Source of the DNA: a virus
DNA length: 48,090 nt
Direction: 5' to 3' (one strand)
Virus record (IMG/VR): IMGVR_UViG_3300017950_000014
Span: 1-48,090 of that record
Positions 4,079 through 43,240 of the stretch are shown one piece after another. Below the pieces are notes generated by a model. The model made no database searches and was not told where the DNA came from. It saw nothing but the letters and a program-made list of their open reading frames with translations. The first letter of the stretch is position 1; every line of letters begins with the position of its first letter. Both the position numbers and the translations under genes were made by a program.

Positions 4079-4552
4079 ATGAAAACAAAATTGTGGAAAA
4101 AGGTAAAGAGAATGGAACTTAATAATCCCATAATACAAGTTATGATTGGACTTGTAATATTTTATATCGGCTTAAAAATGTTTTCTGGCGGTATGAAATC
4201 AATGGGAAATATAGAACACTTATCATGGTTTATTGGTAATCCTTTATACATGTTTGCTGGTGGTATTGTAATGACTTTACTATGGCAATCTTCTTCATTA
4301 TCTACTACTGCCATTATTGCTTTAGTAGCTTCTGGAGCAGTTCCTTTACCTGCAGCTATAGCAGCTGTATTAGGCGCTAATTTAGGCACAACAGGTACTA
4401 TATGGTTAGCAGGCTTATTAGTTTCAGATGGTATGCCTAAAGGTGATACTCTAAGAATTGCTATGGCTCATACAGGCGTTAATTTAATAATGGCTTTATC
4501 TTTATTACCTTTTGTACATCATATATCAAGATTTTTAACACGTTTTACTTAA
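4079..4552 (+). CDS. Half-size Na+/phosphate cotransporter-like membrane protein
   Basis: The sequence carries the signature of one Na/Pi-cotransporter (NptA/YjbB, PF02690-type) repeat: a GLKMFSGGMK helix, QSSS at 70-73 and GANLGTT at 99-105, with at least three or four hydrophobic segments. Cellular members have two inverted copies and are much longer; here only one copy (157 residues) is encoded, so it would have to work as a dimer or act as a modulator. Likely location is the inner membrane and likely role is phosphate uptake during infection, both inferred. A second start at 4112 has a better upstream AAAGAG. Phosphate supply for DNA synthesis would fit the nearby nucleotide reductase. 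Confidence 0.85.
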   Translation: MKTKLWKKVKRMELNNPIIQVMIGLVIFYIGLKMFSGGMKSMGNIEHLSWFIGNPLYMFAGGIVMTLLWQSSSLSTTAIIALVASGAVPLPAAIAAVLGANLGTTGTIWLAGLLVSDGMPKGDTLRIAMAHTGVNLIMALSLLPFVHHISRFLTRFT

Positions 4553-7703: not shown

Positions 7704-8102
7704 ATGACTACACTACCCCTAATTAAGAATTTCGACAAGTTTTTTGTTGGTTATGAAGATATGTTTGATCGTATTAGTCAAAATACAACTAACTATCCTC
7801 CCTATAACATTATTAGAGCTGATGCCAATTCCTACATTATTGAAATGGCTTTAGCTGGATTCGACAAAACTAATGTTGAAGTTACTTTAGAAGGCAGTAA
7901 ACTAACGGTAAAAGGTACAGCACCCGAAAAAGATGAATCTGTAAAGATCTTTAATGGGTTGGCTTTACGGCCTTTTACTAGAGTGTTCAATGTAAGTGAT
8001 GATATTAAGGTAACTAATGCAGAAATGCTTAATGGTTTACTGAAAGTCACACTTGAACGTGAAGTTCCGGAAACTCATATCAAAAAGATTGAAGTAAAGT
8101 AA
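7704..8102 (+). CDS. Small heat-shock protein, Hsp20/alpha-crystallin family
   Basis: The 132-residue protein has a short N-terminal arm, an alpha-crystallin domain at about 33-121 with the conserved NGLLKVTLE edge (110-118), and a C-terminal I-x-V tail motif (IEV, 129-131) used for oligomer assembly. It is expected to bind unfolding proteins in the cytoplasm as an ATP-independent holdase. Hsp20 genes are a recurring feature of marine phages, where they may protect capsid assembly. AAAAGGAAAA precedes the ATG. Confidence 0.95.
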   Translation: MTTLPLIKNFDKFFVGYEDMFDRISQNTTNYPPYNIIRADANSYIIEMALAGFDKTNVEVTLEGSKLTVKGTAPEKDESVKIFNGLALRPFTRVFNVSDDIKVTNAEMLNGLLKVTLEREVPETHIKKIEVK

Positions 8103-14143: not shown

Positions 14144-14373
14144 GTATGAAAAACCCTTATGCGTGTACTACTGTCTCTGCTTATATGCATCAAATCCTAT
14201 TAGCAGACTTTGGAAAGCTAAAAGAAGAAAACGACGCCATAAAGAAAGAATTACAAGAAACTCAAATTAAATTAGAAGAAGCTTTACAAAATCAAAGCCC
14301 ACCTAAACGCCCTCGTGGAAGACCTAGGAAAATAGTAAATGGATCAAGTAGTATTACATCAAGCTCAGAGTGA
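14140..14373 (+). CDS. Coiled-coil protein with AT-hook, packaging-associated
   Basis: The start at 14140 overlaps the preceding stop (ATGA). Residues about 26-52 form a coiled coil and the segment PPKRPRGRPRKI is a textbook AT-hook (PRGRP core) that binds the minor groove of AT-rich DNA. The end is Ser-rich and overlaps TerL by 35 nt. Its position immediately before terL, size and DNA-binding motif make it a second small-terminase or packaging-site recognition candidate besides the fusion protein at 10209. Confidence 0.75.
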   Translation: MSMKNPYACTTVSAYMHQILLADFGKLKEENDAIKKELQETQIKLEEALQNQSPPKRPRGRPRKIVNGSSSITSSSE

Positions 14374-15673
14374 AATATTTAGTGATCTTTTTGTAAATAA
14401 AACAACTAGGTATGCCGTAGGAGTTTGTACTCGTGGTTTTGGAAAAAGTTATCTTGCGGCTATTTGTGCTATTCAAGCAGTTAGTGAACTTTTAGAATTA
14501 CCAGAAAGCGTACCAAATAAAAATGTAACACTTTTAGCTCCAACTTATCAACAAGCTGTTGATATTTATTTTCCTTTATTATGGTATGAATTTGGAATGA
14601 AAGATTATGCAGATACCGGTTCTGCATATTCAGGTAAAATTAGATTTAAGAATGGCACTGAACTTCGCCTTATGTCATATGAATCGGCAGAAAGATTGAG
14701 GGGTACTGGCCAGTACTTTATTGTATGTGATGAGGTTTCTTCATGGCAACAAAAGCCAGGTTTAGAAGAAACTTGGAAAGCTACTCTTAAACCTTGTATT
14801 ACTACTCGTTGGTCTAGAGAACAAGCTAAAAAATTTGGAGCACCGTCTCCCGGTAGAGCTTTAATTATATCAACTCCAATGGGCTATAATTATTTACATG
14901 ATATGTTTAATATGGAGCATATAGATAATGATTGGAAAGGTTACCATTTTACTTATAAAGATGCACCTCATTTATCTCAAATAGAAATTGAAAAAGAAAA
15001 ATTATTATCTGATCCTTTAAGATTTGCAAGAGAGTATGAAGCAAGTTTTGAAGATTCTGGAGCTAATGTATTTTATAACTTTAGAAGAACAGAACATATT
15101 GCAGAAGATATTCCTTATTTTGGAGACGAAGAAGATGTACATGTTGCAATTGACTTTAACGTAGGTGTTATGGCATGGTCTGCCTTTGCTAAACGAAGTG
15201 ATCAAATTCATTTTATTACTGATGGTAAAGGAACACCTGATACTACTCAACTTGCAAAAATGTTAAAATCTAAGTTTCATGGACATCGTATTTATGCTTA
15301 CCCTGATCCTTCAGGAAGAGCTAGAAAAACTTCTGCAGCAGCAGGTATTACTGATTTTAAAATTTTAGAATCAGAAGGAATTACTTGCAGGGCAAGACGA
15401 AAAGCCCCACCTATCGCAGATTCTGTACAAGCAGTTAATCTTATGCTTAAGAATGCTGCTGGTCAAACTCGTATGTATTTTAGACCAGAATGTCAAAATA
15501 CAATTAAATCAATGGAAACTACTGTTTGGAAAGAAGGCTCTATCGATAGTGCGCAAATTGATAAAACCATGGGAGCAGAACACCATTCTGATGGCGTAAG
15601 ATACGCTACAGAATACTTATTCCCAGTTCAAACAGGTAGTAAAAAAGTCATTTGTAATACAATGACATTCTAA
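14339..15673 (+). CDS. terL: Terminase large subunit (ATPase and nuclease)
   Basis: The 444-residue protein is the DNA-packaging motor. The ATPase part shows a Walker A variant TRGFGKSY (31-38), Walker B FIVCDE (127-132) and an STPMG coupling motif (178-182). The C-terminal RNase-H-like nuclease has acidic residues Asp272 (VAIDFN), Asp323 (YPDPSG) and Asp418 (HHSDGV). It docks on the portal and cuts concatemeric DNA. The start lies inside the AT-hook gene; no later ATG occurs before Walker A. Confidence 0.96.
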   Translation: MDQVVLHQAQSEIFSDLFVNKTTRYAVGVCTRGFGKSYLAAICAIQAVSELLELPESVPNKNVTLLAPTYQQAVDIYFPLLWYEFGMKDYADTGSAYSGKIRFKNGTELRLMSYESAERLRGTGQYFIVCDEVSSWQQKPGLEETWKATLKPCITTRWSREQAKKFGAPSPGRALIISTPMGYNYLHDMFNMEHIDNDWKGYHFTYKDAPHLSQIEIEKEKLLSDPLRFAREYEASFEDSGANVFYNFRRTEHIAEDIPYFGDEEDVHVAIDFNVGVMAWSAFAKRSDQIHFITDGKGTPDTTQLAKMLKSKFHGHRIYAYPDPSGRARKTSAAAGITDFKILESEGITCRARRKAPPIADSVQAVNLMLKNAAGQTRMYFRPECQNTIKSMETTVWKEGSIDSAQIDKTMGAEHHSDGVRYATEYLFPVQTGSKKVICNTMTF

Positions 15674-15685
15674 TAGGATCCTAAA

Positions 15686-17431
15686 ATGTCTAATAGTGGT
15701 ACTTTTAATCTAAATGCAGGTGGTATTTTTTACACTGCAAATAGTAATAAGAGTGTGGGAGATCCCTCAGACCAATACACAAGTATTCGTCCTTTGTGGG
15801 ATCGTGCTCGTGCTGTTGTTCAAGGTCAACGCTTTTCTAAAGCTTTTGACACTTACGTTGATACAATGAATTTTAATAATTTGTTGTTACCTTTTTCACC
15901 TAGCATGACTCAAAATCAATATGATTTCTATAGAGCTGAGGCTGAATTACCGGGATTAACTTCTCAGTATGCTCGTGTTCTAGTAGGCTCAATGCTTCGT
16001 AAAGGAGTTAATTTAGAATTGCCAGACAATGCACCAGAAGGTGCTAAAGAATGGCTTTTGCATAAATTTACAGCAGATAATAAATCTATTCATTCTTTTT
16101 TAGATGAAGCTATGTGGGAAGAAATTCAAACTTCTCGTGCTTGGGTATTAGTTGATTACCCCCAAGTTATGTCAGAACTTTCTCAAGATGAAAGTGAAGA
16201 AATTTATCCTTATCCTCGTTTATTAAGAGCGGAATCAGTTATTAACTGGAAAGAAGGAACACATCCAATTAAAGGAACTCCTGCTCTTACTCAAGTTATT
16301 TGTCGTTATTACACGCAAAACTATGAAGAAAATGAATTTCATCCAACTTATACAGACACTGTAGTTGTGTATGATTTACCTGATGGTTATTTACGTGTTC
16401 GTATTTATGAGCGTAAAAAAGATGATGAAAATGTTCCAATTATTAATGGTGAAGTACAACAATATTATAATGTAGAAGGTGGTGGTTTTAAAGGTTCAGG
16501 TAAATCTAATCAATGGGAACTTAAATCTACTAATATTAATGTTCTTAAAAACGGAGAAAGATTAGATTTTATTCCGCTTTGGCCTTTAAATGGACAATGC
16601 CAACCTTCAGAACCAATGCTACAACCGCTTATTGATCGTGAAATTGGTTTGTATAACAAAGTATCTCGTAGAAATCATTTACTGTATGGTGCAGCAACTT
16701 ACACACCTGTAGTAGCTTCTGATATGTCTGATGAAGAATTTGAAGAATTAGTTTCTGCTGGATTAGGTTCATGGTTGCGTGTCCGTGAAGGTGAAAAAAT
16801 TACTGCATTAGAAACACCAACTAATGCTTTAAAAGACATGGAACAAGCAATTAATAATACCATAGACGAAATGTCTAAAATGGGTATTCGTTTGCTTTCA
16901 CCTGAAGGAAATAGTTCTGGTGTAGCTTTAGAAATTCGTAATGCTGCTCAAACAGGTTTACTAGGTAATCTAAATACTCGTGTTTCTATTACAATGGCAG
17001 AAATAATTGCATTTATGTTAAATTGGAAATACGGTACCGATTATACAACTAGTGATATTAAATTTATGCTTTCTGGAGACTTTAATCCAGCACCTCTTGG
17101 TTCTGATTGGATGCGCTTGGTTACAGAATGGTATCAAGCAGGTCTTATTCCTCGTGCAACATTCTTGGATATTGCTAAACAAAACGATATTATTCCAAAC
17201 GATTATGATGACAAAGAAGCTATTTCTGAAATTGAAGAAGATGACTTGATTGTACCAGTAAGAGAACAGTTTGATGTTAATGTAGAATTACGTCAAGCTA
17301 AAGCTACAGGCACATATTCTGAAACAGGATACGCTGATTCAAATAATAAAGCACAAGGTGGCGCAACTATTCGCCCTTTACGTGAAAGAACTAAACCTGT
17401 AAATGATGGGAGTATTTCTCCCGAACGTTAA
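15686..17431 (+). CDS. Portal protein (DUF4055-like)
   Basis: The 581-residue protein follows TerL with AGGATCC upstream of its ATG. The N-terminal part (LWDRARAVVQGQ, YRAEAELPGLTSQYARVLVGSMLRK) and the long helical middle with IDREIGLYNKVSRRNHLLY and a SPEGNSSGVALEIRNAAQTG segment match the DUF4055 type of portal. It forms the ring at the capsid vertex through which DNA passes. Its position between TerL and the MuF protein supports this. Confidence 0.9.
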   Translation: MSNSGTFNLNAGGIFYTANSNKSVGDPSDQYTSIRPLWDRARAVVQGQRFSKAFDTYVDTMNFNNLLLPFSPSMTQNQYDFYRAEAELPGLTSQYARVLVGSMLRKGVNLELPDNAPEGAKEWLLHKFTADNKSIHSFLDEAMWEEIQTSRAWVLVDYPQVMSELSQDESEEIYPYPRLLRAESVINWKEGTHPIKGTPALTQVICRYYTQNYEENEFHPTYTDTVVVYDLPDGYLRVRIYERKKDDENVPIINGEVQQYYNVEGGGFKGSGKSNQWELKSTNINVLKNGERLDFIPLWPLNGQCQPSEPMLQPLIDREIGLYNKVSRRNHLLYGAATYTPVVASDMSDEEFEELVSAGLGSWLRVREGEKITALETPTNALKDMEQAINNTIDEMSKMGIRLLSPEGNSSGVALEIRNAAQTGLLGNLNTRVSITMAEIIAFMLNWKYGTDYTTSDIKFMLSGDFNPAPLGSDWMRLVTEWYQAGLIPRATFLDIAKQNDIIPNDYDDKEAISEIEEDDLIVPVREQFDVNVELRQAKATGTYSETGYADSNNKAQGGATIRPLRERTKPVNDGSISPER

Positions 17432-17491: not shown

Positions 17492-20400
17492 ATGTCAATT
17501 AATACAACGCTTTATGATAATGCAGTTCAAAATGCAGCAGATATTCGTATTGCAGAAGAAGAATTATTTACTCAGCTAGATCGCTTAAACAGAGACCATC
17601 AAAGCCGACTATCTAAACTAATTGCTCGTAATAGTAATGAAAAAGATTTGTTATCCGAAGTTACTCGTTACAAAAGTATTTCCAAAACTACTATTGAAAA
17701 TGCTTTAAATGAAATTGGAATTAAAGAATTATCGTTTCAAAAAAATAGTATATCTAGTGCATCTAAAAGTTTTTATAAATTAAAAGATGTTTCAAGAGAA
17801 GGTTTTTTAAACTCTATTAAAAATAATCCAATTAGAGGAAATAAAAATTTAACTCAACAAATAGATGGTATTTTTAACAAACAAGAACAAAGAATTAAAT
17901 CTATTCTTTCTAAAAATATTTCTTCTAAATCTCAACTTAGTTCTGAAATTAAAAATGCAAGTAACTTAAGTAGAGCGCAAAGCCATACCTTATTTGCAAC
18001 TTCTAGTACTCAAAGTCAATCAGAAGCTTTTACTAGGACTATGGAAGCTAATAAGGATATTATAAAAGGATATCGATTTACTGCAGTGCTTGATTCAAGA
18101 ACTTCAGATATTTGTCAACATCACGATGGTGAAATATATCCTGTAGATGATCCTAAGTTTGTTCCTCCTTTACATTGGAATTGTCGTTCAGTATTAGTTC
18201 CAGTTTTAAAATCACACAGTGAGCTTATTGGTACTGATAGTAAACGTATTTTATATTCTGTTTTAGAAAAAATGAACGTAGTTTCTATTTCTAAACTAGA
18301 TGGTTTAAATCCTAAACTAGAAAGTTATGATGTTTGGTTACGTAGACAACCTACAGAAGTTCAATTAAAACATTTAGGTAATAACTTAGAAAGACTAGCT
18401 TTGTTTCAAAATGGTAACTTACATTTAAAAGATTTTCAATCTGCTAGAGGAACTAATGTTAGCGCAGAAGTACTTTCTAGAAAAGCACAAGAAGGTCTTT
18501 TTGATACTCCTATAAGAACTACTAAGTATCAACCTGCAGCTAACTATGATTTTAAAGTAGAGGCTTATAAAGTTGATGACTTAATCAAAAATAAAAAAGC
18601 TCAAAAACAATTAAGTGAACTTTTTGAAATTGATGAAAGACATAGTATTTCTCCTTTATCAACTACTGAATTTAGAGGAGTTACCTCAGAAACTAAAAGA
18701 CAAAATAGGTTTAGATCTAAAACTGTAGCAGATGAAGATTTGATTATGGATCCAGTTACAGGAATTGTAAGAAATCCATTAATATATAGGCCTAATAATA
18801 AACTTTTAGAAGAAAGATTAGAATTAGTAAGAAATTCTAAAATTTTAAATAAAGAACAAAAAAAGTTTATTGAAGATTTTGTGAATTCAATGGAAGATAG
18901 ATTAAGCACCAATAATCGTTCTGTAATTACAGAAAATTTACGTGTTACTTTTGAAAGACAGCTTAATGTTGATTCTCCTAGCTACAATAAGCCATGGGAA
19001 AACTTAACTGCAGTAATTAGAGCAGAGAATACTAATGCGGTTGCTAACGTATCTCGTAGATTAGAGCGTACTTATCGCAAAGATTTAAAGCACATGGTAG
19101 TTGCAAATGTTAGTCCTGATGCAGACGTAATGCCTTCTGTTAATATTTTTGGTACAATTCGTACTTTTGATGAAATTGAAGATAGTATTGCAAGCAATCA
19201 ACGTTTTGTAGATGACTGGATTGATCGCAAAGGTTTAAAAATGGCTACAAAAGCTTATTTTAGTGGTAAAGCTCCTTTGCGAAATTACTTTTTACCACCT
19301 TCACAAGTTAATCCTTTAGACTTTAAAAAACGTATTATAAAAGCTTATGATGAAGTTATTGATAGCTTAAATTTCCCAGCAAAAGCTAAAAAATATATTA
19401 AACAACAAATTGAGTTTTGGACACAAAATCCAATAACTGTTGCAGAAAATGCTTTAATTGACTTTGCTAGAGAATTAAATGTTCGTTGGTATCAATTAGT
19501 AGAATTAGAATTTCTTTATAGAGCGCTTAATATTAACATTAGAAAAGCAGTTGTAAATAATTCACCTGAAATTGTTAAAGTAAATACTAGAGCAATTGCA
19601 AAAGGTCTTAAAGCGTTAGCAGATGGTTCTACTTTAGACTATGATACTTTAGCTATTAACGTAGGTAAAGCACTGTATGATGAATCTCGTATTGATTTAC
19701 CTTGGCGTAAACCAACTCTTAAAGATTATCATAAAAATGGTTCTAGAATTTTAGCTGATTTAGAAAAACAAGGTCTTATTAAAATAGGTCAAGCTACTGT
19801 TACTCGTCAATCTGTTATTGATGTTAAAACAGGAAGACCAGATCCTTCAGGTTATAAAGAAGTACAACAAAGAGAAATTGAGATTCTAGATCCAGAACTT
19901 TCAAAATTACAACAAATTAATAGAGAGTTATATATTGGTCGTAGAATTGGTATTACTCAAAAGAAAAATAGGTTATATTTAGAACCACCAGTTGAAGGAA
20001 AAGGCGCTTCTAATATTAAATACAAAGATGCACAAGGAAAAGTAACTAGCGAAAAAGTTATTACTCGTTCAGCTTCTGCTAAATTAGGTACAGATGAAGA
20101 TGCAATTGGAAATCAATTAGATCGTGATTTTCAACAACAAACTAATTATGCAAATAGTCTTACTTGGGGTTTAGATAATCAATTTACAGATTTTTTCCAA
20201 GATGTTGTTTATTATACACCTAAAGATGCAAAACGTGTAACTTCTTCACCTAATTTATTTAGAGAAGTAGTTAAAAGGCGTGGAGAACAGGGTACTATGT
20301 TTATGCAATCTATGAAATGGCATAGACAAAAAGGTACTAATTGGTCTAATATTCATCAATTTGATGGTCGTGGTCGTTTTTATGAGCAAGGTTATTTAGC

Positions 20401-23164
20401 AGCTACTCGTGGAGAACTTGTACGTCCTTTTTTACATACTACCTTTGATCAATCTGGTAATAATGCAATTATTTTAGAATTAAAGAAACAGTTAGGTGCA
20501 ACAGTAGGAGATAAAAATTTAGGACTCTCTACTAATGGACGTTTTCAAAACTTTAATGATAATTTAGATGATTTCCTAGAAATAGGAGCTATTATTCAAG
20601 GAAAGTATAACCAAAAACAAAGGTCTATTAATGAATTTTTAGAAAATAAATTAATTGCACATGTTGATGATATTGGGGATGCTGCTGAAATTGGTAAAAT
20701 AGCTCGTTATTCTTTAGAAATAAAAAGAATTGAAGATCATCTTAATAAATCTAAACTAACCTTAAAAGCTAAGAAAGTAGAAAAAGGAATAGTATTTCAA
20801 ACTTGGGATGCAGATAACGCTAACCATAATTCTATTATGAAAAAATTTAAAACTAGATTGTTAGTAGAAAATGATGCATCAGCTTCTGGAGCACAACAAA
20901 TTGCTTTAGCTTCAGGAGATAAGTTATTAGCAGATGCTTCAAATGTTATTCCAACTCCACAAAAACAAAGGTTATACGATTTAGCTGCTCAAGCTACTGT
21001 AGCAAACCCTCAATTCCAAAAACGTTTTGGGCCAGAAGGTTTAAACTTAGGTATTGACTGGGAAGATTTGCAAAAAGGTGCTAAAGCTCAAAATATGGTA
21101 ACTTTTTATGGAGCTGGAGAAGTAACAAAAACTTTAAACATTGAATCAAAATTTGCTAAAGTGCTTACTAAAAATGAACAGAATATTGTTGTTTATTCAG
21201 ATAAAGCACCTGATGCACCAAATGCTTTTTCTCAAAAAGAATTATATAATGCAATTGAAGCTAATATTAATGATGCAGAAGCAAGAGGTTTAACTAATAC
21301 AGTAATTGGTTTAAAACAAGTTAAAGATGAACTAGACCAAGTTTTAAAAAAAGAAATTTCTATAGGAGATCATTTATTACGTTACTCTAGCGAAAAAGAT
21401 GATATAGTAGCAGATTTTGTTAGAAAAACTACTAATACTAGAGCTAATCTTATTACTCCTAAAGATTTTGAGTTTATTAATAGAGTAATGTCTGAAGAAT
21501 TAAGTAAAATTGCTCCTTCAACGGAAAGGTTTATTACTTTTTGGAAATCAGCGGCTAGATCTTATGTGAATGTTTCTGGAACTGTAGATATGCCTTGGGT
21601 TAACTATAGAGGTAAACAATTTACTCAATTTTATAGACCTATATCTGAGGAATCTATTACTTTCAAAGATCCTATTACGGGTAAATTAATTTCTAATAGA
21701 TATAGAAACTCTGTAGATAATGGACTACTACGTTCTTCTGGTTCAGCTGGAGATGCTCAAACGGGATTAGGTGTTAACGGAAATCATTCTAATGATGCTA
21801 GTTTAGTTCAAGGCTATTGGTTAAAAGCAAGATCAGAAAAGAAAAGAGTAGCAACTATTCATGATGGTTTTTTTGCACCTATTGAAGATGCTGATTGGAC
21901 AATTAATACTCTATATGAATTAATGGGTGATGCTGTAGAAAGTAATTCTATTAAAAATACCTTAAAAGCAATGAGAAATTCTGCAAAAGAAAACATTAAT
22001 AGAGAAACACGTAGAGAACAAGCTTCTATGCTAGACTCTTTATTACAAAAAGCAGATAAAGGTTTGTTAACTAAAAATGATATTTCTAACTCTTTTAAAA
22101 CTTTACCGGGTTTAAAAGAGTATATTAAAAAAGAAACAAAGTTAACAGATTATGAAATAAGTAAAAAATTAGGAAATGTTCAAAAACAATCTATTTTAAA
22201 CGATTTAATTTTTAATATTAACGATGAATTTTATTCTGTTAAAACTTTAAAAGATAGTTTAAATGAGATTATTCTTTTAGAACAGGGCTTAAATAAAAAG
22301 TTTAAATTAAGCACTAATCAAATTTTAAATGAATATGCTAAACATGGAACTAAAAAACGTTTACTTATAACTCAAAATAAATATAAAGAAGGTACTTTAA
22401 GTAATAGTTTATTTTTTAATCAATATTTTAAAGAACCAGCTTTAACACCTCAAGAAGCTGCAAAATATAGAGATGCCGTAAAGAAAGCAACTGCTCAAAA
22501 GAAAGCTATTCCTTCAGTTTCTGAAGCTTTAGGTAAAAAGCCTTCTCAAAAAGAAGTACTTCGTAAACAATATGGCATAAGTAATCTTAAAAATCTTGAA
22601 GATAAACTTGTAAGTGGTGACTTTAATTTTGAAACATTTTTTAAAACAGAATTAACCAAAACTGAAAATCCTTTAAATTTAAAAGATTTAAAAGAAATAA
22701 TTAAAGAAGTTAGTTTATCTCAAAATCCAGATATTAATATTAAAGATATAATTGCAGGAATAAAAAGTTATCGTGGTAATCTTAGAAGTGTTCAAAGAAA
22801 ACAATTAAGAGAAATAGATAACTGGTATGAAAGCATGCTAGCAGAAGCTACTCGTTTACAATTAATTGACAAAAATAAAACTAATAAAATAGTGTTAAAT
22901 AAAATTGATCAATGGCAAAATAGCTTAGTTAAAAGAAAATTTAATTATCAACAGTTACCTGCTTTTTATAGAGATTGGTCTGAAGATTTAGAAAAATATT
23001 TTGAAATTAAAAGTCTAGCAGAATTAAATATTAAATATCGTTCTGGTAATTTTAGTATAGAAGATTTTTTAAGAATTCAAGATAATAGGTATAGAGAATT
23101 AAAAAAATCAGATATTATTAAAAAACCATTAGAAAATCAAGATAGATATGGAATCGGGCCGTAA
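17492..23164 (+). CDS. MuF-domain / single-subunit RNA polymerase fusion, candidate virion RNAP
   Basis: The 1890-residue protein starts with a Mu-F/SPP1-gp7 head domain (about 1-240) ending in the signature DSRTSDIC (201-208) and PPLHWNCRS (225-233). After a spacer, T7-type RNA polymerase motifs appear in order: DGRGRFY at 958-964 (T7 DWRGRVY), motif A NDASASGAQQ with Asp1128 (T7 D537), motif B KAQNMVTFYG with Lys1198 and Tyr1206, the exact K-x8-G spacing of T7 K631...YG, motif C HSNDAS with Asp1435 (T7 D812) and IHDGFF at 1457 (T7 IHDSF). Both catalytic aspartates are present, so activity is expected. About 380 residues follow the core and are not recognised. Location between portal and scaffold and the MuF domain imply capsid packaging and ejection with DNA, as for N4 virion polymerase. 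The terminator at 23153-23175 overlaps its last codons. Confidence 0.93.
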   Translation: MSINTTLYDNAVQNAADIRIAEEELFTQLDRLNRDHQSRLSKLIARNSNEKDLLSEVTRYKSISKTTIENALNEIGIKELSFQKNSISSASKSFYKLKDVSREGFLNSIKNNPIRGNKNLTQQIDGIFNKQEQRIKSILSKNISSKSQLSSEIKNASNLSRAQSHTLFATSSTQSQSEAFTRTMEANKDIIKGYRFTAVLDSRTSDICQHHDGEIYPVDDPKFVPPLHWNCRSVLVPVLKSHSELIGTDSKRILYSVLEKMNVVSISKLDGLNPKLESYDVWLRRQPTEVQLKHLGNNLERLALFQNGNLHLKDFQSARGTNVSAEVLSRKAQEGLFDTPIRTTKYQPAANYDFKVEAYKVDDLIKNKKAQKQLSELFEIDERHSISPLSTTEFRGVTSETKRQNRFRSKTVADEDLIMDPVTGIVRNPLIYRPNNKLLEERLELVRNSKILNKEQKKFIEDFVNSMEDRLSTNNRSVITENLRVTFERQLNVDSPSYNKPWENLTAVIRAENTNAVANVSRRLERTYRKDLKHMVVANVSPDADVMPSVNIFGTIRTFDEIEDSIASNQRFVDDWIDRKGLKMATKAYFSGKAPLRNYFLPPSQVNPLDFKKRIIKAYDEVIDSLNFPAKAKKYIKQQIEFWTQNPITVAENALIDFARELNVRWYQLVELEFLYRALNINIRKAVVNNSPEIVKVNTRAIAKGLKALADGSTLDYDTLAINVGKALYDESRIDLPWRKPTLKDYHKNGSRILADLEKQGLIKIGQATVTRQSVIDVKTGRPDPSGYKEVQQREIEILDPELSKLQQINRELYIGRRIGITQKKNRLYLEPPVEGKGASNIKYKDAQGKVTSEKVITRSASAKLGTDEDAIGNQLDRDFQQQTNYANSLTWGLDNQFTDFFQDVVYYTPKDAKRVTSSPNLFREVVKRRGEQGTMFMQSMKWHRQKGTNWSNIHQFDGRGRFYEQGYLAATRGELVRPFLHTTFDQSGNNAIILELKKQLGATVGDKNLGLSTNGRFQNFNDNLDDFLEIGAIIQGKYNQKQRSINEFLENKLIAHVDDIGDAAEIGKIARYSLEIKRIEDHLNKSKLTLKAKKVEKGIVFQTWDADNANHNSIMKKFKTRLLVENDASASGAQQIALASGDKLLADASNVIPTPQKQRLYDLAAQATVANPQFQKRFGPEGLNLGIDWEDLQKGAKAQNMVTFYGAGEVTKTLNIESKFAKVLTKNEQNIVVYSDKAPDAPNAFSQKELYNAIEANINDAEARGLTNTVIGLKQVKDELDQVLKKEISIGDHLLRYSSEKDDIVADFVRKTTNTRANLITPKDFEFINRVMSEELSKIAPSTERFITFWKSAARSYVNVSGTVDMPWVNYRGKQFTQFYRPISEESITFKDPITGKLISNRYRNSVDNGLLRSSGSAGDAQTGLGVNGNHSNDASLVQGYWLKARSEKKRVATIHDGFFAPIEDADWTINTLYELMGDAVESNSIKNTLKAMRNSAKENINRETRREQASMLDSLLQKADKGLLTKNDISNSFKTLPGLKEYIKKETKLTDYEISKKLGNVQKQSILNDLIFNINDEFYSVKTLKDSLNEIILLEQGLNKKFKLSTNQILNEYAKHGTKKRLLITQNKYKEGTLSNSLFFNQYFKEPALTPQEAAKYRDAVKKATAQKKAIPSVSEALGKKPSQKEVLRKQYGISNLKNLEDKLVSGDFNFETFFKTELTKTENPLNLKDLKEIIKEVSLSQNPDINIKDIIAGIKSYRGNLRSVQRKQLREIDNWYESMLAEATRLQLIDKNKTNKIVLNKIDQWQNSLVKRKFNYQQLPAFYRDWSEDLEKYFEIKSLAELNIKYRSGNFSIEDFLRIQDNRYRELKKSDIIKKPLENQDRYGIGP

Positions 23165-24067: not shown

Positions 24068-25177
24068 ATGGCAATCTCTTCTAATACAACTATTGGCAAT
24101 TTTTCATTTGCCATTCAGAGTGCTCTTTCAGCTTACTCTGATGAAATGTATACTAATGCCAAAAAATTATCAGGTACTGGAATCGTAGGCTCTAATGCTC
24201 AAGTTGATCCTAACACTGAAACTTTTATTGGTCAAACTCGTTTCTATAAGCCTTATGCTTCACAAACAGTAAATGTTGCTTCTACTAGTGTTGCAACTGA
24301 CGGTTCAAAGCAAGCGTATACTTCAGACTACCTGACTTATGTCAAAACAGTCCGTACACATGGCGCACAAGAGATTAACATGCAACGTGTTATTTCTCAG
24401 CAAGACGGCCTTGCTAAAATCGCTCGTGATTTTGGTGAAGTTCGTGCTCAAGACGAGCATGATGCAATTATTAACATCCTTCAAGGTGTTGCTAAAAATG
24501 AAGCAGCAGTTGGAACTGGTTACAGCGCTTTTGGCGGTAACTATGATTCAGACGGAATTGGTTTCTTTGTAGACGTTAACGCAGGCGGTGCTTTTGGTAC
24601 TGATACTGATCAAGGTCTTTTGACTGCTGGTGGTATTTCTACAGGTTATGGTGCTATTCGTGCTGAAAACCTATTTACTGCTCTTTCTCTTGGTTTTGCC
24701 GATCATGAACCAGATTTCGTATATATGATTACTTCTCCAGAAGTTATGACTCAATTACGTGTTGCTAACATTGTTGATCAAACTACTGTTACTGAAGGAA
24801 ATCTTGAATTTACTACTGCTTTTGGTGGTAAGTTCCGTCTTCTTATGACTCGTGCTGATCAGGGTAACCGTGGTGCAGACTCTAATGTACACGCTAATTC
24901 TGTTAAGACCACATTTATGGTTAAGCCAGGTGCTGTTGAAATGGCACAACTTGCTGTTCCAATGCCAGTAGAAATGTATCGTGATGCTAACAAGTATAAC
25001 GGTGGCGGAACTACTGATATGTGGTATCGTTGGGGTTACGTTATGCATCCAATGGGTTATGATTGGACTGGTGCGGCCACTGCGTTTGCAACTAATGCTA
25101 CTTATAATGCAGCAGCGTCATGGGACCGCAAGTATGACGTGTTGAATCTTGGTATTCTTCCAATCTTCCACGCTTAA
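24068..25177 (+). CDS. Major capsid protein
   Basis: The 369-residue protein follows the scaffold with AAGGAATAAAA upstream. Codon use is noticeably more C- and G-ending than in its neighbours, as in highly expressed capsid genes. It is Ala/Thr/Gly-rich, with an extended-arm-like start and QDEHDAIINILQGVA helix typical of the HK97-fold spine region. Assignment rests on position, size and composition; the exact coat family is not identified. Confidence 0.88.
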   Translation: MAISSNTTIGNFSFAIQSALSAYSDEMYTNAKKLSGTGIVGSNAQVDPNTETFIGQTRFYKPYASQTVNVASTSVATDGSKQAYTSDYLTYVKTVRTHGAQEINMQRVISQQDGLAKIARDFGEVRAQDEHDAIINILQGVAKNEAAVGTGYSAFGGNYDSDGIGFFVDVNAGGAFGTDTDQGLLTAGGISTGYGAIRAENLFTALSLGFADHEPDFVYMITSPEVMTQLRVANIVDQTTVTEGNLEFTTAFGGKFRLLMTRADQGNRGADSNVHANSVKTTFMVKPGAVEMAQLAVPMPVEMYRDANKYNGGGTTDMWYRWGYVMHPMGYDWTGAATAFATNATYNAAASWDRKYDVLNLGILPIFHA

Positions 25178-29403: not shown

Positions 29404-32400
29404 ATGGCAGTACAAATAGACGTAAGGGCTAATTCAGAACAAGCCCAACGTAGCCTTGAAAAATTAAATAATTCTGTTAAAAATATTGAAGTTTCAGCTG
29501 ACAGCGTTAACTCCAGTCTTAGAAGTTTAAATCGAGCAGCACAATTTGCTGCAACTGCTATTACTGCTGCTTTTACTGGTTCTGTTATTACAAGAGCGGC
29601 TGATTCTTATAAAAGAATTAATACACAATTAAGATTAGCAACACTTAATGCTAAAGGTTTAGTTGCAGCCCAACAAAATGTTAATAGAATTGCTATTCAA
29701 ACTAGAAATAATATAGAAGGAACAGCAGTTTTATATGCTAGACTTAATAAATCTGCAATTCAATTAAATAAATCTCAAGCGCAAACAGCAAAAGCTACAA
29801 GAGCTATTTCACAAGCAATCCAAATATCTGGCGCTTCTGCTGCTTCTGCTCAAGCTGCAATTATTCAATTAGGACAAGGTTTAGCCTCTGGAACTTTAAG
29901 AGGAGAAGAATTAAATTCTGTTCTTGAACAAACACCACGTATTGCTAAAGCTTTAGCCGATGAATTAAATATAAGTGTTGGTCAACTTCGTAAAATTGCT
30001 TCAGAAGGAAAATTAACTTCAGAAGTTGTTTTTAATGCGTTAGTAAATCAATCAGCTAAAATTAATAGTGAATTCTCTCAAGTCTCAGTTACAGTTGGAC
30101 AAGCTCTTTCTGTTTTTAATACAGGAGCAAGTAATTTTCTTGCAAGTTTAGATAAAGCTGTTGGTTTATCAGATAGCTTAGCTAAACGCATTATTATTGT
30201 AGGAGAGGCGTTAAACGACTTTGGTGCTACTTTTGAAGATAGAGTTACTATTTTAGAAGCTAGATTAACTTTATTTAGAATTCAACTTTTAAGATCATTT
30301 AGAACTACTTTTGCTAAAATTACTGATAGCCTAAAAAATATTACTTTTGAAAATATTACATTTGATGTTAGTTCTAATGCGTATACTAATGCAACAAAGA
30401 AAATTTCTGAAATTGAAACTAAATTAAAATCTTTAACTGGCTTTAATATTAAGATTGATTTTAGTGCAATAGAATCTTCGATTAATACTGTAAAAAGTTT
30501 TACTAAAGAAATTTACAATTACTTTGAAGATTTATATATAAAGTTAGTAGGTAACTCTATTATTCCTGATATGGTTTTTGCCATTATTGACTGGATGTTA
30601 ACATTAAAAGCAGAAACTCTTCCTGTTATTGAAGATTGGAAAAAAGAATTTGTTGGTAAAATAGAAGAACTATATAGTAAAAGTGTAAGAGGTCTTGGCG
30701 ATTTTGTTTATGCTACTAAAACTCAACTTGAAAGTTTAAAAGAAAATTCTTTTATTAAAAAAGGTTTTGATGTTGTAGAAAAATCTTTAGATAGAATAAA
30801 AGCAAGTGATGCATTTATTTCAGTAAACTCTGCTTTATCAGAAGCTAAAAATAAAGCTTTAGAAGTAGGTAATACTTTAAAAGATTCTTTTAAAACTACA
30901 TTTACATTTGATGATGATACTGTATCTACTTTAACTGGATCTTTTGGACTTGCTTTAACGGCTGCTACTTTATCTCCAGATCTAATTAATGCTTTTAGAA
31001 CGCTTTTTGATAATTCATTAGCTTTAGTAAAACCTATAGCTATTTTAACTTTAAGTGAAAAGTTTGGTAGTGATATTGCAAGAGTTTTAAAAGAAAAAGT
31101 TGATTTTGAAAGTCTTGGAGAAAGTATTGGTACTGCTTTCCGTAATATTGTTAGTGGTGCAGGAAGTAGTGGAACAGCCGATTTAGGTGCTCAACTTGGA
31201 GCTTCTTTCTTAAACTTCATTCAAGGTGGATTAAAAGGTGCTGTTTTTGATGCAGAATTTACTGATGCGTTAACTGTTGCACTTAGCGGTGTTTTTGTTG
31301 CTGCTGTTGCTTCTAAAGGTTTTAGATCTGCATTATTAGCCAGTTTATCTTTTAGTTTTACAGGTGCTTCAATCACTGATAAAATCGGACCTTTAGGTAA
31401 AGGCCGAGATGTTAATACAGATATAATTGGAGAACAAAGAGCAGCTAGTATCCAAAGAGTAATTGCAGGTAGTACTGCTATTGCAGGTAGTTTGTTTGCA
31501 GCACAAGTATCAGAAGAGTTAGGTGGTTCAGCTGCTGATCAAATTGCTGCAGCAATTGTTGGAGGCATGTTAGGTGGTGTTGCTGGCGCTCTTTTAGGAC
31601 GAATAGGCGCTTCTATAGCTTTAGGTATTTCTTCTACTTTAGCAACTATAAGTGCAGCTGCAGGTTTAACTGCAGCAGGTGGAATAATTGCTGGTGGTAT
31701 TTTAACAGTATTAACAGGTCTTGGTGGACTCCTTTTATTTCCTGAAGAAACTCAACTTTTAGTTAAATCAGTTTTTGGTGAAGCTGCTGCAAATTTTGTA
31801 AAAGAGTTAAGTAATACTTTAAGAACTTTTACACAAGAAGTTGGTCAATCTATTGGAGATGCTTTTAAAGAAGTTTTAAAATTCTTTGGAATTGAAAAAG
31901 ATAAAGCAAAACTAACTGATCAAACTATTTCTCAAAGAGAAGCTTTTGAAAAAGCAATAGATAATCTTAGAGTATCAGAATTAGTTAGAGTAGACGATGC
32001 TTTACTAAGTAATGTATTAACTCTTCTTAGTAATAACAATAATACTAATCAAGAACTTGGAGTTTTAATAAGACAACAAGCTGCTTTAGCAAAAGAAACT
32101 TTAACTACTAATACTTTAAATGCTTTAGCTTCTGAAATCGAAAAGTTACCTAGTAAAGTAAAAGAGACAAATGATAGTTGGCTTGATGATTTTAGTAAAA
32201 GTGTAAAAGAAATTTTCTCTAGTGAAGATTCAGCGGTACTTAATCAAAGAGTTAAACCTAGCGTTGAGATTGGTAATGATCTTAGAGAAAAATCTTTAAT
32301 TACTTTAAAATCTCTAGATGCTGTAACAAGTAAAAGAGAGGATCCTAGAGAATTAGTTAAAAATGCAATATCTATTCTTGAAAAAGGTGAAAAGAACGCT

Positions 32401-34437
32401 TTTGAAATTGCAAATGCGTTAGAAAAATTTAATACTCGAAATGACGAAATAAATAAAACCTTTAAATCTATTGCTGAATTATTTAGACAAGACGCTTTAC
32501 GCTCTTTACAAGCTAGAAGAGAAGAAGATGCAGCTCGAGCTAGAGCTAGAGCAGAAGAAGGCAAAAGAAAAATTGCTGGTTTTGCTAATGGTGGTAGAGT
32601 TTGGGGTTCTGGTACTGGAAAATCTGATTCTATTCCTGCTTATCTTTCTAATGGTGAATATGTAGTAAATGCAAAAGCTACAGCACGTAATTTAGGAACT
32701 CTTTCTGCCATTAATGGCGGTATGAATGTTGGGGGTCAAGTAGGCCGTTATGAAAACGGTGGACTTGCTAAAATAATTCAAAATGTTTTAAAACATGAAG
32801 GTGGTAAGTCAAATAATAAATTAGATAGAGGTGGCAAAACTAACTTTGGTATTACTCAATCTGTTTGGACAGCAGAAGGTAATAAAGGTGATGTTTTTGA
32901 TATTAGTAAAGAAGATGCTATAAAATTTTATAAACATTTATGGCAAAAGTCTAAAATATATAGATTTAACGAAGAATTACAAGCTCAACTTTTTGATATT
33001 ATTATAAATAGCGGTTATGGTAATGCTGCTAATATGTTTCAAAGAGCTTTAAATATTAGAACTGCTTCTGGACAATTAGCACAAACTAGTGGTTTTGGTA
33101 CTAAAACTATAGCTGCAATAAATAGACTTAGTAATAATCAAATGGTTAACATTAGATTAGGTTATTTTGATGATATTGTTAAAAATGATCCTGATCAAAA
33201 AGAATTTTTAAAAGGTTGGAGAAATAGAGCAAAATCTTTTAGAATGGCCACAGGTGGTAAAGTTGTAGGTCCAGGTACTGGACGTTCTGACTCTATTCCT
33301 GCAATGTTATCTAATGGTGAATTTGTAGTTAATGCATCTGCTACCAGTCGTAATAGAGGATTATTAGAATCTATTAATCGTACTGGATTTAAAAACGGTG
33401 GTGTAGCAGGTGTTAATTCTGAAAATTTACTTACAGATGGAACTTCTGAAGTTGTAGAAGGAATTAAAGATTTAACAAATGAAACTGTTACTTATTCTCA
33501 ATTTGCGCAATTAGGCAAAACTGAAACTAATATTGTTAAACAATCTTTAAAAGCTATAGAACTTATTAATAACGACATGATTAATGCTAGTGCATCTGAA
33601 AGTGCTGAGTTATTATTACAAGTAGAAAACCTTAAAGGTGTAATTAGTAAATATCTTTCTACTGTTACTGGCGCAGATGGCGACCAAGCAAGTGGTGTTA
33701 CCCAAAAGAGTTTTGCTGAAAAAGTAATGGAATCTGTTGATTTTAATGAAGCAGGTGCAGTTGCTGGTAGAGATTTTGTTAATACATTAAGAGTTGCCAT
33801 TATAGAAGGCGAAGGCGGGGGTATTAAAAGTATCCTTAGAGGCTTTGTTGATTCATTTACTGCAAAAGTAGTTGATCAATTTTTTGATGGTTTAAGTACT
33901 CAATTTGCTGATCTATTTAGTGCAGATGGTCCCCTTGATTTAAATGATGCTTTTAAAAATATCGGTGAATCATTAAAAGGTTTATTTGGTGAGGGCGGAA
34001 CGTTAACTAGTTTACTTGGTGGATTAGGAAATAGTATTAGCGGTATTTTTTCATCTATTAGTGGAATGATGGGTGGCGGAGGCGGAGGCGGCCTTGGTAG
34101 TATTATTAGCACTATTGGTGGCTTTTTTGGAGGTGGCGCTAGTGCTTCTAGTGTTATTCCTTCCTTAATTACACCTTTTGCAACAGGAGGTATGGTTGCA
34201 GGTCCAATAGGTGGAGAAGTTCCAGCTCTTGTACATGGTGGAGAAATGATTCTTAACCCTACACAACAACAAGCTTTGTTTAGTAATAAAAAAGCAAATG
34301 GAAATTCAAACAATGTTAGCGTTAATCTTCAAATTACTGGAGATGTATCTGCACAAACTCGTAAAGAAGTAATGAAATTATTACCTGAAATTGCAGATAG
34401 TACACAATATACATTTAGAGAAAGAGGAATAATATAA
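29404..34437 (+). CDS. Tail tape measure protein with embedded GH108-type lysozyme
   Basis: The 1677-residue protein sets tail length. The N-terminal part (about 1-260) matches the TMP_3 type region (AADSYKRINTQLRLATLNAKG, LASGTLRGEELNSVLEQTPRIAKAL). Helical and hydrophobic Ala/Gly-rich segments fill the middle (about 490-820). A muramidase-like domain of GH108 type lies at about 1118-1278: catalytic Glu1132 in KHEGG, NFGITQ, then a peptidoglycan-binding half. It is flanked by two copies of a loop module GGxVxGxGTGxSDSIPAxLSNGEYVVNA (from 1061 and 1282), with a third related copy from 1593 (ATGGMVAGP). A Gly-rich hydrophobic run lies near 1540-1580. The lysozyme probably opens the cell wall at DNA entry. 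Confidence 0.93.
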   Translation: MAVQIDVRANSEQAQRSLEKLNNSVKNIEVSADSVNSSLRSLNRAAQFAATAITAAFTGSVITRAADSYKRINTQLRLATLNAKGLVAAQQNVNRIAIQTRNNIEGTAVLYARLNKSAIQLNKSQAQTAKATRAISQAIQISGASAASAQAAIIQLGQGLASGTLRGEELNSVLEQTPRIAKALADELNISVGQLRKIASEGKLTSEVVFNALVNQSAKINSEFSQVSVTVGQALSVFNTGASNFLASLDKAVGLSDSLAKRIIIVGEALNDFGATFEDRVTILEARLTLFRIQLLRSFRTTFAKITDSLKNITFENITFDVSSNAYTNATKKISEIETKLKSLTGFNIKIDFSAIESSINTVKSFTKEIYNYFEDLYIKLVGNSIIPDMVFAIIDWMLTLKAETLPVIEDWKKEFVGKIEELYSKSVRGLGDFVYATKTQLESLKENSFIKKGFDVVEKSLDRIKASDAFISVNSALSEAKNKALEVGNTLKDSFKTTFTFDDDTVSTLTGSFGLALTAATLSPDLINAFRTLFDNSLALVKPIAILTLSEKFGSDIARVLKEKVDFESLGESIGTAFRNIVSGAGSSGTADLGAQLGASFLNFIQGGLKGAVFDAEFTDALTVALSGVFVAAVASKGFRSALLASLSFSFTGASITDKIGPLGKGRDVNTDIIGEQRAASIQRVIAGSTAIAGSLFAAQVSEELGGSAADQIAAAIVGGMLGGVAGALLGRIGASIALGISSTLATISAAAGLTAAGGIIAGGILTVLTGLGGLLLFPEETQLLVKSVFGEAAANFVKELSNTLRTFTQEVGQSIGDAFKEVLKFFGIEKDKAKLTDQTISQREAFEKAIDNLRVSELVRVDDALLSNVLTLLSNNNNTNQELGVLIRQQAALAKETLTTNTLNALASEIEKLPSKVKETNDSWLDDFSKSVKEIFSSEDSAVLNQRVKPSVEIGNDLREKSLITLKSLDAVTSKREDPRELVKNAISILEKGEKNAFEIANALEKFNTRNDEINKTFKSIAELFRQDALRSLQARREEDAARARARAEEGKRKIAGFANGGRVWGSGTGKSDSIPAYLSNGEYVVNAKATARNLGTLSAINGGMNVGGQVGRYENGGLAKIIQNVLKHEGGKSNNKLDRGGKTNFGITQSVWTAEGNKGDVFDISKEDAIKFYKHLWQKSKIYRFNEELQAQLFDIIINSGYGNAANMFQRALNIRTASGQLAQTSGFGTKTIAAINRLSNNQMVNIRLGYFDDIVKNDPDQKEFLKGWRNRAKSFRMATGGKVVGPGTGRSDSIPAMLSNGEFVVNASATSRNRGLLESINRTGFKNGGVAGVNSENLLTDGTSEVVEGIKDLTNETVTYSQFAQLGKTETNIVKQSLKAIELINNDMINASASESAELLLQVENLKGVISKYLSTVTGADGDQASGVTQKSFAEKVMESVDFNEAGAVAGRDFVNTLRVAIIEGEGGGIKSILRGFVDSFTAKVVDQFFDGLSTQFADLFSADGPLDLNDAFKNIGESLKGLFGEGGTLTSLLGGLGNSISGIFSSISGMMGGGGGGGLGSIISTIGGFFGGGASASSVIPSLITPFATGGMVAGPIGGEVPALVHGGEMILNPTQQQALFSNKKANGNSNNVSVNLQITGDVSAQTRKEVMKLLPEIADSTQYTFRERGII

Positions 34438-41755: not shown

Positions 41756-43240
41756 ATGAAGAAAATTATCATTGTTGGCGGTGGATCTGCAGGTTGGATG
41801 ACAGCCTCTACACTTATAAAACAATTTCCTATGTGGGATATTACTTTAATCGAATCTCCAAATATCCCAACTGTAGGGGTAGGCGAAAGTACACTTGGTT
41901 CTATAAATCAATGGCTACAATTTTTAGGTATTAAAGATAAAGACTTTATGCCAGCATGTGATGCTACCTATAAAACTAGTATTAAATTTACAGATTTCTA
42001 TAAAAAAGGAGAGCATTTTCATTACCCTTTTGGTCAACCTGATTTACAAGGAACTAGAAATGGTTTAAATGATTGGTGGTTAAAAAAGTTTTTTTATGAA
42101 AATTCACCTTACAGTGATTACGCAGAAACTTATTATCCTTTAGGTTATTTAGCAGAAAATAACAAAATTTTAAAATCTAATGAATTAATGAATTTTAATT
42201 TTGAAAACGATGTAGCTTATCAATTTGATGCTACTAAGTTTGGAATTTGGTTAAGAGATAATTATGCTTTGCCTCGTGGTGTTAAACATATTAAAGAAGA
42301 AATTACAGATATTCAAGTTAATCAAGAGGGTATAATTTCAGTTAATAATTATACAGCAGATTTATATTTTGATTGTACTGGTTTTAAATCATTACTTATG
42401 GAAAAATTAGAAGTTCCTTTTAACTCTTATGAGGAAATGCTTGTTAACAATTCTGCTTGGGCTACTCATTTACCTTATACAAATATTAAAGAAGAGCTTA
42501 CATCTTATACTAATTGCACAGCTATTGAAAATGGTTGGGTTTGGAATATTCCTTTAACTAGTAGAATGGGAACAGGCTATGTATATTCTGATAAATTTGT
42601 TGATGATGAAACTGCACTTAACGAATTTAAAAAATATCTTGGAAGAGATGATTTAAATTTTAAAAAAATTAAATTTACTCCAGGTATTAGAGATCGAATT
42701 TGGGAAAAAAATGTAATTTCTATTGGATTATCAGCTGGATTTATTGAACCGCTTGAAAGTAATGGTTTAATGACGGTTCATGAATTTTTATTATATTTTA
42801 TGAGAAATACACAAAGAGAAACTATTACACAATGGGATAAAGATAATTTTAATTCAATGTGTAAATCTTTTTTTGATAATTTTGCTCAATTTGTAGCTTT
42901 TCATTTTGCTATTACTTCTCGAACAGATACTTCTTATTGGAAATATTGTACTAATAAAAAATGGAATATTGCTGAAAATGCAAAAATGCAAAGAACAGAA
43001 AATTATTATTTTTCAGAAAATTCAGGTTATCATTGCATAGCAGCAGGAGGCCATTGGGGTCCAACTGAAGCTTGTACTTTAAATTATTTTAATTCTAAAA
43101 AAGACAATGAGTTATTAGAAGATTGGAAACCATTTTTTAATAATTTAGAAAAAAGAATTGATTCTTGGAAAACTATTGCTAAAAATTTAGATTCTCCTTA
43201 TGATTTTTTAAACAAAGAAATTTATAATGGTAAGATTTAA
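41756..43240 (+). CDS. Flavin-dependent halogenase (tryptophan-halogenase family)
   Basis: The 494-residue protein has the FAD-binding GGGSAGW (8-14), the family pattern around GVGESTLGS (41-49), the active-site Lys73 (ATYK, equivalent to Lys79 of PrnA/RebH), the WxWxIP motif WVWNIP (261-266) that excludes monooxygenase activity, and FIEPLESNG (329-337). All key residues are present, so it should form HOCl/HOBr-type reagent at FAD and transfer it via Lys73. FADH2 must come from a host reductase. Phage members such as cyanophage VirX1 accept iodide and bromide on aromatics in vitro; natural substrates are unknown. AAGGATT precedes the ATG. Function with the adjacent oxygenase is inferred. Confidence 0.95.
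   Translation: MKKIIIVGGGSAGWMTASTLIKQFPMWDITLIESPNIPTVGVGESTLGSINQWLQFLGIKDKDFMPACDATYKTSIKFTDFYKKGEHFHYPFGQPDLQGTRNGLNDWWLKKFFYENSPYSDYAETYYPLGYLAENNKILKSNELMNFNFENDVAYQFDATKFGIWLRDNYALPRGVKHIKEEITDIQVNQEGIISVNNYTADLYFDCTGFKSLLMEKLEVPFNSYEEMLVNNSAWATHLPYTNIKEELTSYTNCTAIENGWVWNIPLTSRMGTGYVYSDKFVDDETALNEFKKYLGRDDLNFKKIKFTPGIRDRIWEKNVISIGLSAGFIEPLESNGLMTVHEFLLYFMRNTQRETITQWDKDNFNSMCKSFFDNFAQFVAFHFAITSRTDTSYWKYCTNKKWNIAENAKMQRTENYYFSENSGYHCIAAGGHWGPTEACTLNYFNSKKDNELLEDWKPFFNNLEKRIDSWKTIAKNLDSPYDFLNKEIYNGKI

Follow-up and report, generated by a model that had tools for sequence, protein, structure and literature searches.

What is an RNA polymerase doing inside a phage head gene? The question is raised by a single ORF in the window, that is, the whole 48,090-nt stretch of viral DNA analyzed here (record IMGVR_UViG_3300017950_000014; linear, probably a fragment), which runs for 1890 codons without interruption and joins a MuF head domain to a single-subunit RNA polymerase (ssRNAP). 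PHROGs recognized both head morphogenesis (2.7e-43) and RNA polymerase (1.3e-12) in its product, and the gene lies within the late/structural operon, 60 bp from the portal gene, in the following setting:

14339..15673, + strand: large terminase gene (phrog_2, terminase large subunit, E 3.1e-33)
15686..17431, + strand: portal gene, directly 5' of the fusion (phrog_145, portal, E 3.3e-58)
17492..23164, + strand: MuF-ssRNAP fusion gene, a single ORF of 1890 aa, each half of which is matched in Pfam and in PHROGs
17924..18196, + strand: MuF domain, residues 145-235, with D201, C208 and PPLHWNCRS at 225-233 (PF04233, E 3.6e-13)
24068..25177, + strand: major capsid protein gene (phrog_247, E 1.3e-26)
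29404..34437, + strand: tape measure gene (phrog_17300, E 1.8e-76)

On the 3' side of the fusion are genes for the major capsid protein, a head-tail adaptor, and the major tail, tape measure, and distal tail proteins; the last three identify the window phage as long-tailed, a siphovirus, as the preliminary description of this DNA had proposed. In DSS3_PM1, the fusion likewise adjoins the portal gene, save for one tRNA. The tape measure protein of the window contains an endolysin-like stretch (residues 1068-1301; phrog_315, E 3.5e-32), and a tryptophan halogenase gene is found among the tail genes (41756-43240; PF04820, E 9e-106). The window also carries genes for an Hsp20 small heat shock protein (7704-8102; PF00011, E 8.8e-15) and a short Na+/Pi-cotransporter-like product (4079-4552; PF02690); a gene similar to the latter is located between portal and fusion in two relatives (L005, 1373-1807; L006, 7168-7602).

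The MuF half scored 50.7 bits against Phage_Mu_F (PF04233), for which the curated cut-off is 29.6, and its residues D201, C208, PPLH, and CRS are invariant in a set of 45 non-redundant homologs (<90% identity); the positions described earlier for D201 and PPLHWNCRS are correct. A Foldseek search with this part gave no significant match to a solved structure. For gp7, the MuF protein of phage SPP1, the portal directs a few copies to the interior of the procapsid; its presence in the head is known, and its passage into the cell has been proposed for toxin forms (PMC6316719). According to PMC5576092 and PMC5512222, MuF proteins often bear C-terminal toxin/effector or other enzyme domains, in agreement with the earlier remark that MuF is known joined to toxins.

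The polymerase half was delimited by alignment and modelling as follows:

18644..22111, + strand: polymerase N-terminal and catalytic regions, residues 385-1540 as modelled (AlphaFold, Foldseek)
20363..20383, + strand: DGRGRFY (residues 958-964), corresponding to the T7 'DWRGRVY' motif in the profile alignment to T7
20867..20896, + strand: motif A, ENDASASGAQ, with catalytic D1128; aligned with T7 'FDGSCSGIQ', invariant in 45 homologs
21083..21118, + strand: motif B, KAQNMVTFYGAG, with K1198 and Y1206; invariant, K-to-Y spacing of 8 as in T7
21773..21796, + strand: VNGNHSND (residues 1428-1435), corresponding to T7 'PNFVHSQD', with D1435 as the Asp of T7 'VHSQD'
21857..21874, + strand: motif C, IHDGFF, with catalytic D1458; aligned with T7 'IHDSFG', H1457 and D1458 invariant where present
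22052..23131, + strand: helical insertion of ~360 residues before the conserved C-terminus, peculiar to the clade of the window and absent from most homologs
23147..23161, + strand: conserved C-terminal tail YGIGP; YG(I/V)G ends 78/78 complete homologs

Among the 45 homologs, D958, R960, R962, Y964, D1128, K1198, Y1206, G1207, H1457, and D1458 are invariant where present, and in the 78 complete homologs the YG(I/V)G tail is nearly always followed by P. The preliminary description had located DGRGRFY at 958, motif A at D1128, and motif B at K1198 with the T7 spacing to YG, all of which agree with the T7 alignment and the invariance (Y1206 at +8), but it took D1435 for the motif C aspartate, a residue that the T7 alignment places at D1458 in IHDGFF. 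RNA_pol (PF00940) matched residues 1108-1519 above the curated Pfam cut-off (E 7.8e-6), and a profile built from 45 sequences over residues 385-1540 matched T7 RNAP with E 1.7e-7 and a T7-type profile at ~1e-9 (probability 96-97%); in a sequence search of the PDB, T7 RNAP gave the only significant matches. By BLAST, the fusion found no T7-like phage and showed low similarity to characterised RNAPs, and an ssRNAP alignment at ~12% identity was judged unreliable for a deep tree. The AlphaFold model of residues 385-1540 (pLDDT 74.7, pTM 0.73) has the right-hand ssRNAP fold with motifs A, B, and C in order, and its top Foldseek matches in the PDB were all ssRNAPs, namely yeast and human mitochondrial RNAP and T7 RNAP (E 5e-17 onward, probability 1.00), aligned over ~1090 columns. 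The structure prediction proposed earlier as a check on the polymerase thus returned the right-hand fold, with T7 and mitochondrial RNAPs as best matches (E ~1e-16 to 1e-17). Judged by its motifs and predicted fold, the second half is a complete T7/mitochondrial-type ssRNAP, and the ORF, Pfam, PHROGs, AlphaFold, and Foldseek together uphold the claim of MuF and ssRNAP in one frame. Between the window and a relative of 88% identity (L002), dN/dS of the gene is 0.11 overall, 0.10 in the MuF part, 0.09 in the catalytic part, and 0.21 in the clade-specific insertion, which is under weaker constraint.

The polymerase had been labelled T7/N4-type, and the T7 part of this label is borne out by profiles and fold, whereas the N4 part is not: hhalign gave a probability of 0.6 to the N4 gp50 polymerase domain, although both match T7-type profiles, so that membership in the N4 vRNAP family by sequence was rejected. 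A fold search of a viral library returned the DSS3-type protein first, T7-like RNAPs next, and N4 vRNAPs more weakly. The phrog_2166 name 'N4-like RNA polymerase' was also discarded as a sign of kinship, since the same name is borne by T7-like polymerases of the Vibrio phages N4 and VP4; this label (NC_013651.1, NC_007149.1) can mislead annotation toward coliphage N4. From these comparisons, the fusion polymerase looks like a T7-like enzyme recruited separately from the N4 vRNAP.

The fusion is present in at least 578 IMG/VR stretches, among the 599 matches listed, and its carriers form a large group of mostly marine, long-tailed bacterial viruses. MuF and polymerase share one open frame in 76 of 78 newly fetched loci, the remaining two being truncated. 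Among cultured or named phages, only the Ruegeria phages DSS3_VP1 and DSS3_PM1 (Naomviridae, Noahvirus), where it was deposited as "minor head protein-like", and EBPR siphovirus 1 carry the fusion. A search of GTDB genomes for prophages or hosts gave a single MAG contig with the fusion (1539 aa). Some members of the fusion-carrying lineage, the DSS3 phages, have deoxyuridine DNA. These phages are reportedly the subject of a study by Rihtman and colleagues from 2021.

In two genomes the fusion gene is split by group I introns:

L008, 23179-23405: group I intron in the fusion gene of EBPR siphovirus 1
L245, 3580-3846: group I intron in the fusion gene of G027
L246, 1652-1910: group I intron in the second polymerase gene of G027

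The intron of EBPR siphovirus 1 (E 1.6e-8) interrupts motif B at the junction V1203|T1204 and has an HNH gene in its region, and the other one, in G027 (E 2.2e-21), is inserted after A1199, four codons earlier. Introns of this group are typically found where a coding sequence is strongly constrained.

A second PF00940 polymerase gene, separate from the fusion and clearly T7-type by BLAST, is present in records that are long enough, namely DSS3_PM1 and six fusion-bearing IMG/VR records; none was found in the window or its near relative L002, both fragments. The genomes of the DSS3 phages contain ~15 SP6-like sites each, all on the same strand, of the form ATAGG..CGTTAAAGAGGGGG (also written ATAGG...CGTTAAAG), three of them directly 5' of the portal and fusion genes, and sites of a related kind were seen in records G003 and G005. 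In the early region of DSS3_PM1, 5' of the second polymerase, one weak SP6-like copy was found, inside a CDS. Past the tail terminator, the early region of the DSS3 phages (~54.3-64 kb in DSS3_PM1) opens with tandem copies of a 39-bp element, located at 54323 and 54770 in DSS3_PM1. Structural genes with the fusion, on one side, and early genes with the second polymerase, on the other, are preceded by two different promoter-like classes. The SP6-like sites of DSS3_PM1 (L007/L010/L120) and DSS3_VP1 (L121/L122) come in two or three variants, GGGTGCG, GGTGACG, and GGTTACG, which may mark temporal classes. Promoter repeats above background were not found in the window, a fragment without the early region.

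The consensus of the 39-bp element, AAAAAAGTGAGAAAAATAANGCATCTATAATGAAANAAT, derives from 176 instances and is conserved contiguously over the 39 bp; as these instances were gathered by similarity to the consensus itself, the conservation flanking a shorter search pattern is the cleaner evidence. Of 32 records searched, 27 contain the element (the reversed-pattern control gave none); N4, Kolga, EBPR siphovirus 1, the window, and L002 do not have it. Its orientation is that of the second polymerase gene in each of the 27, and every one of the 46 copies counted lies 1.7-9.7 kb upstream of that gene. Selection by the element itself had brought in 20 of these records and selection by the fusion the other seven, with the element present in 7/7; it is carried by DSS3_PM1 and by all six IMG/VR records in which the fusion is accompanied by a second PF00940 gene. 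The fusion is held by 11 of 21 element-picked records, and the remaining 10 stop short of it, nine having no capsid gene and one (G018) starting just past the fusion. Full matches among ~50,000 phage records were confined to the DSS3 phages. The element contains a perfect, -10-like TATAAT; nevertheless, it was rejected as a sigma-70 promoter, having no TTGACA -35 box (best match 1/6 in 108/142 copies), and as an N4-like hairpin promoter, having no stable fold. We infer that the fusion polymerase uses it: the 39-bp element heading the early region is probably the promoter of this enzyme in Noahvirus-like relatives.

These data make it likely, in our opinion, that the product of this gene is a virion RNA polymerase with a MuF head protein as its carrier, docked at the portal and ejected with the DNA to transcribe the early genes, an N4-style cascade in siphophages of which we infer the packaging, injection, and activity. 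The genome context, with a portal-adjacent gene in a structural operon, a second ssRNAP, and a distinct early element, fits an N4-like role. Made late, alongside the other structural proteins, the fusion would be brought by its MuF part to the portal, where a few copies would dock within the procapsid, as for SPP1 gp7. Ejected into the cell together with the phage DNA, it would transcribe the early genes, including that of the second T7-type polymerase in the longer relatives, and the latter enzyme would then take over middle and late transcription. The weakest link of this scheme is the promoter assignment, because TATAAT could also serve the host polymerase. A second weak link is the passage of a ~210 kDa chain, probably unfolded, through the tail tube of a siphophage, for which no documented case was found in the literature searched; MuF proteins have been shown to reach the head, and their ejection is less well established.

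Other readings of the locus were weighed against a virion polymerase. The fusion might be an active polymerase that works late, either at the portal or while still in the producing cell, its RNA priming replication, for instance, or helping packaging to start, with host RNAP starting early transcription from the 39-bp element. The location of the gene in the late operon agrees with this, as does the case of SPP1 gp7, whose presence in the head is known and whose transfer to the cell has been proposed for toxin forms (PMC6316719), and host RNAP with some factor could use the element, given its perfect TATAAT. However, the element is devoid of any -35 and conserved as one block, unlike sigma-70 promoters; it is missing from Kolga, which has a T7-type polymerase and a MuF protein without polymerase, although this is one phage of another host; and the documented use of such fusions is that of a portal-bound MuF carrier. 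We therefore regard a late-acting enzyme as unlikely. Still less probable, and in our judgement very much so, is that the polymerase domain serves after injection as an effector in the manner of MuF toxins, with host nucleotides or nucleic acid as its target instead of phage promoters: C-terminal toxin/effector domains are frequent on MuF proteins (PMC5576092, PMC5512222), but Pfam and PHROGs found no toxin-like domain here, the conserved active site is that of a polymerase and not a nuclease, and one uniform domain runs across the homologs in place of the swapping typical of polymorphic toxins.

The low sequence similarity of the polymerase half to characterised RNAPs could raise the suspicion of a structural domain without catalytic activity; with all catalytic residues invariant in 45 divergent homologs, group I introns at motif B, and a dN/dS of 0.09 in the catalytic part, we find this scarcely credible. 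As for an artefact, whether a frameshift, a chimeric assembly, or a chance motif match, its probability is practically negligible, since the same architecture occurs in one frame at 76/78 other loci and in separately sequenced cultured phages, and the Foldseek matches speak against it as well.

A MuF-RNAP fusion was not found described in the literature searched, which did not cover the study on the DSS3 phages, nor in the available portions of PMC5576092 and PMC5512222. One close entry is the 'minor head protein-like protein' of DSS3_VP1 and DSS3_PM1, the same fusion with 1463 aa and ~35% identity; its annotation omits the polymerase, and the window protein has the extra ~360-residue insertion. 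If the proposed delivery is real, it would suggest that annotations as 'head morphogenesis protein' hide delivered enzymes; it is directly testable, for both phages are cultured on Ruegeria pomeroyi. With the MuF minor head proteins (Mu gpF, SPP1 gp7) and the MuF-toxin fusions the protein shares PF04233, a gene right after the portal, and a C-terminal enzyme extension, which is a small toxin in those fusions and here an RNA polymerase at least 1,000 residues long. With the T7/SP6-type RNAPs of Autographiviridae it shares motifs A, B, and C and the fold, but those enzymes end FAFA-like, whereas the fusion ends in YGIGP, sits in a head operon, and is too diverged for BLAST.

To our knowledge, delivery of a single-chain polymerase with phage DNA has so far been known only in N4 and its kin. 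The vRNAPs of N4 (gp50) and Schitoviridae resemble the fusion in being large proteins of the virion operon with an ssRNAP domain, accompanied by a second phage polymerase and special early promoters; in N4, the vRNAP makes the components of RNAPII (PMC12633501). According to PMC5512222, vRNAPs of the N4-like type are confined to N4-like phages and are almost always accompanied by a metallopeptidase domain. In contrast to the fusion, which has 1,450-1,890 aa and a MuF handle and belongs to siphoviruses, the N4 vRNAP has ~3,500 aa, other flanking domains, and hairpin promoters, in a podovirus. We lean, with some reserve, towards a second, N4-independent origin of a virion-borne ssRNAP, in which widespread siphophages would pack a diverged T7-type polymerase by means of MuF and start infection from their own linear 39-bp early promoter without host RNAP. 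If so, these phages could do without host transcription from the first minute onward, and ssRNAP delivery would not be peculiar to the N4-like podoviruses but reached again, through the widespread MuF handle, by abundant long-tailed viruses.
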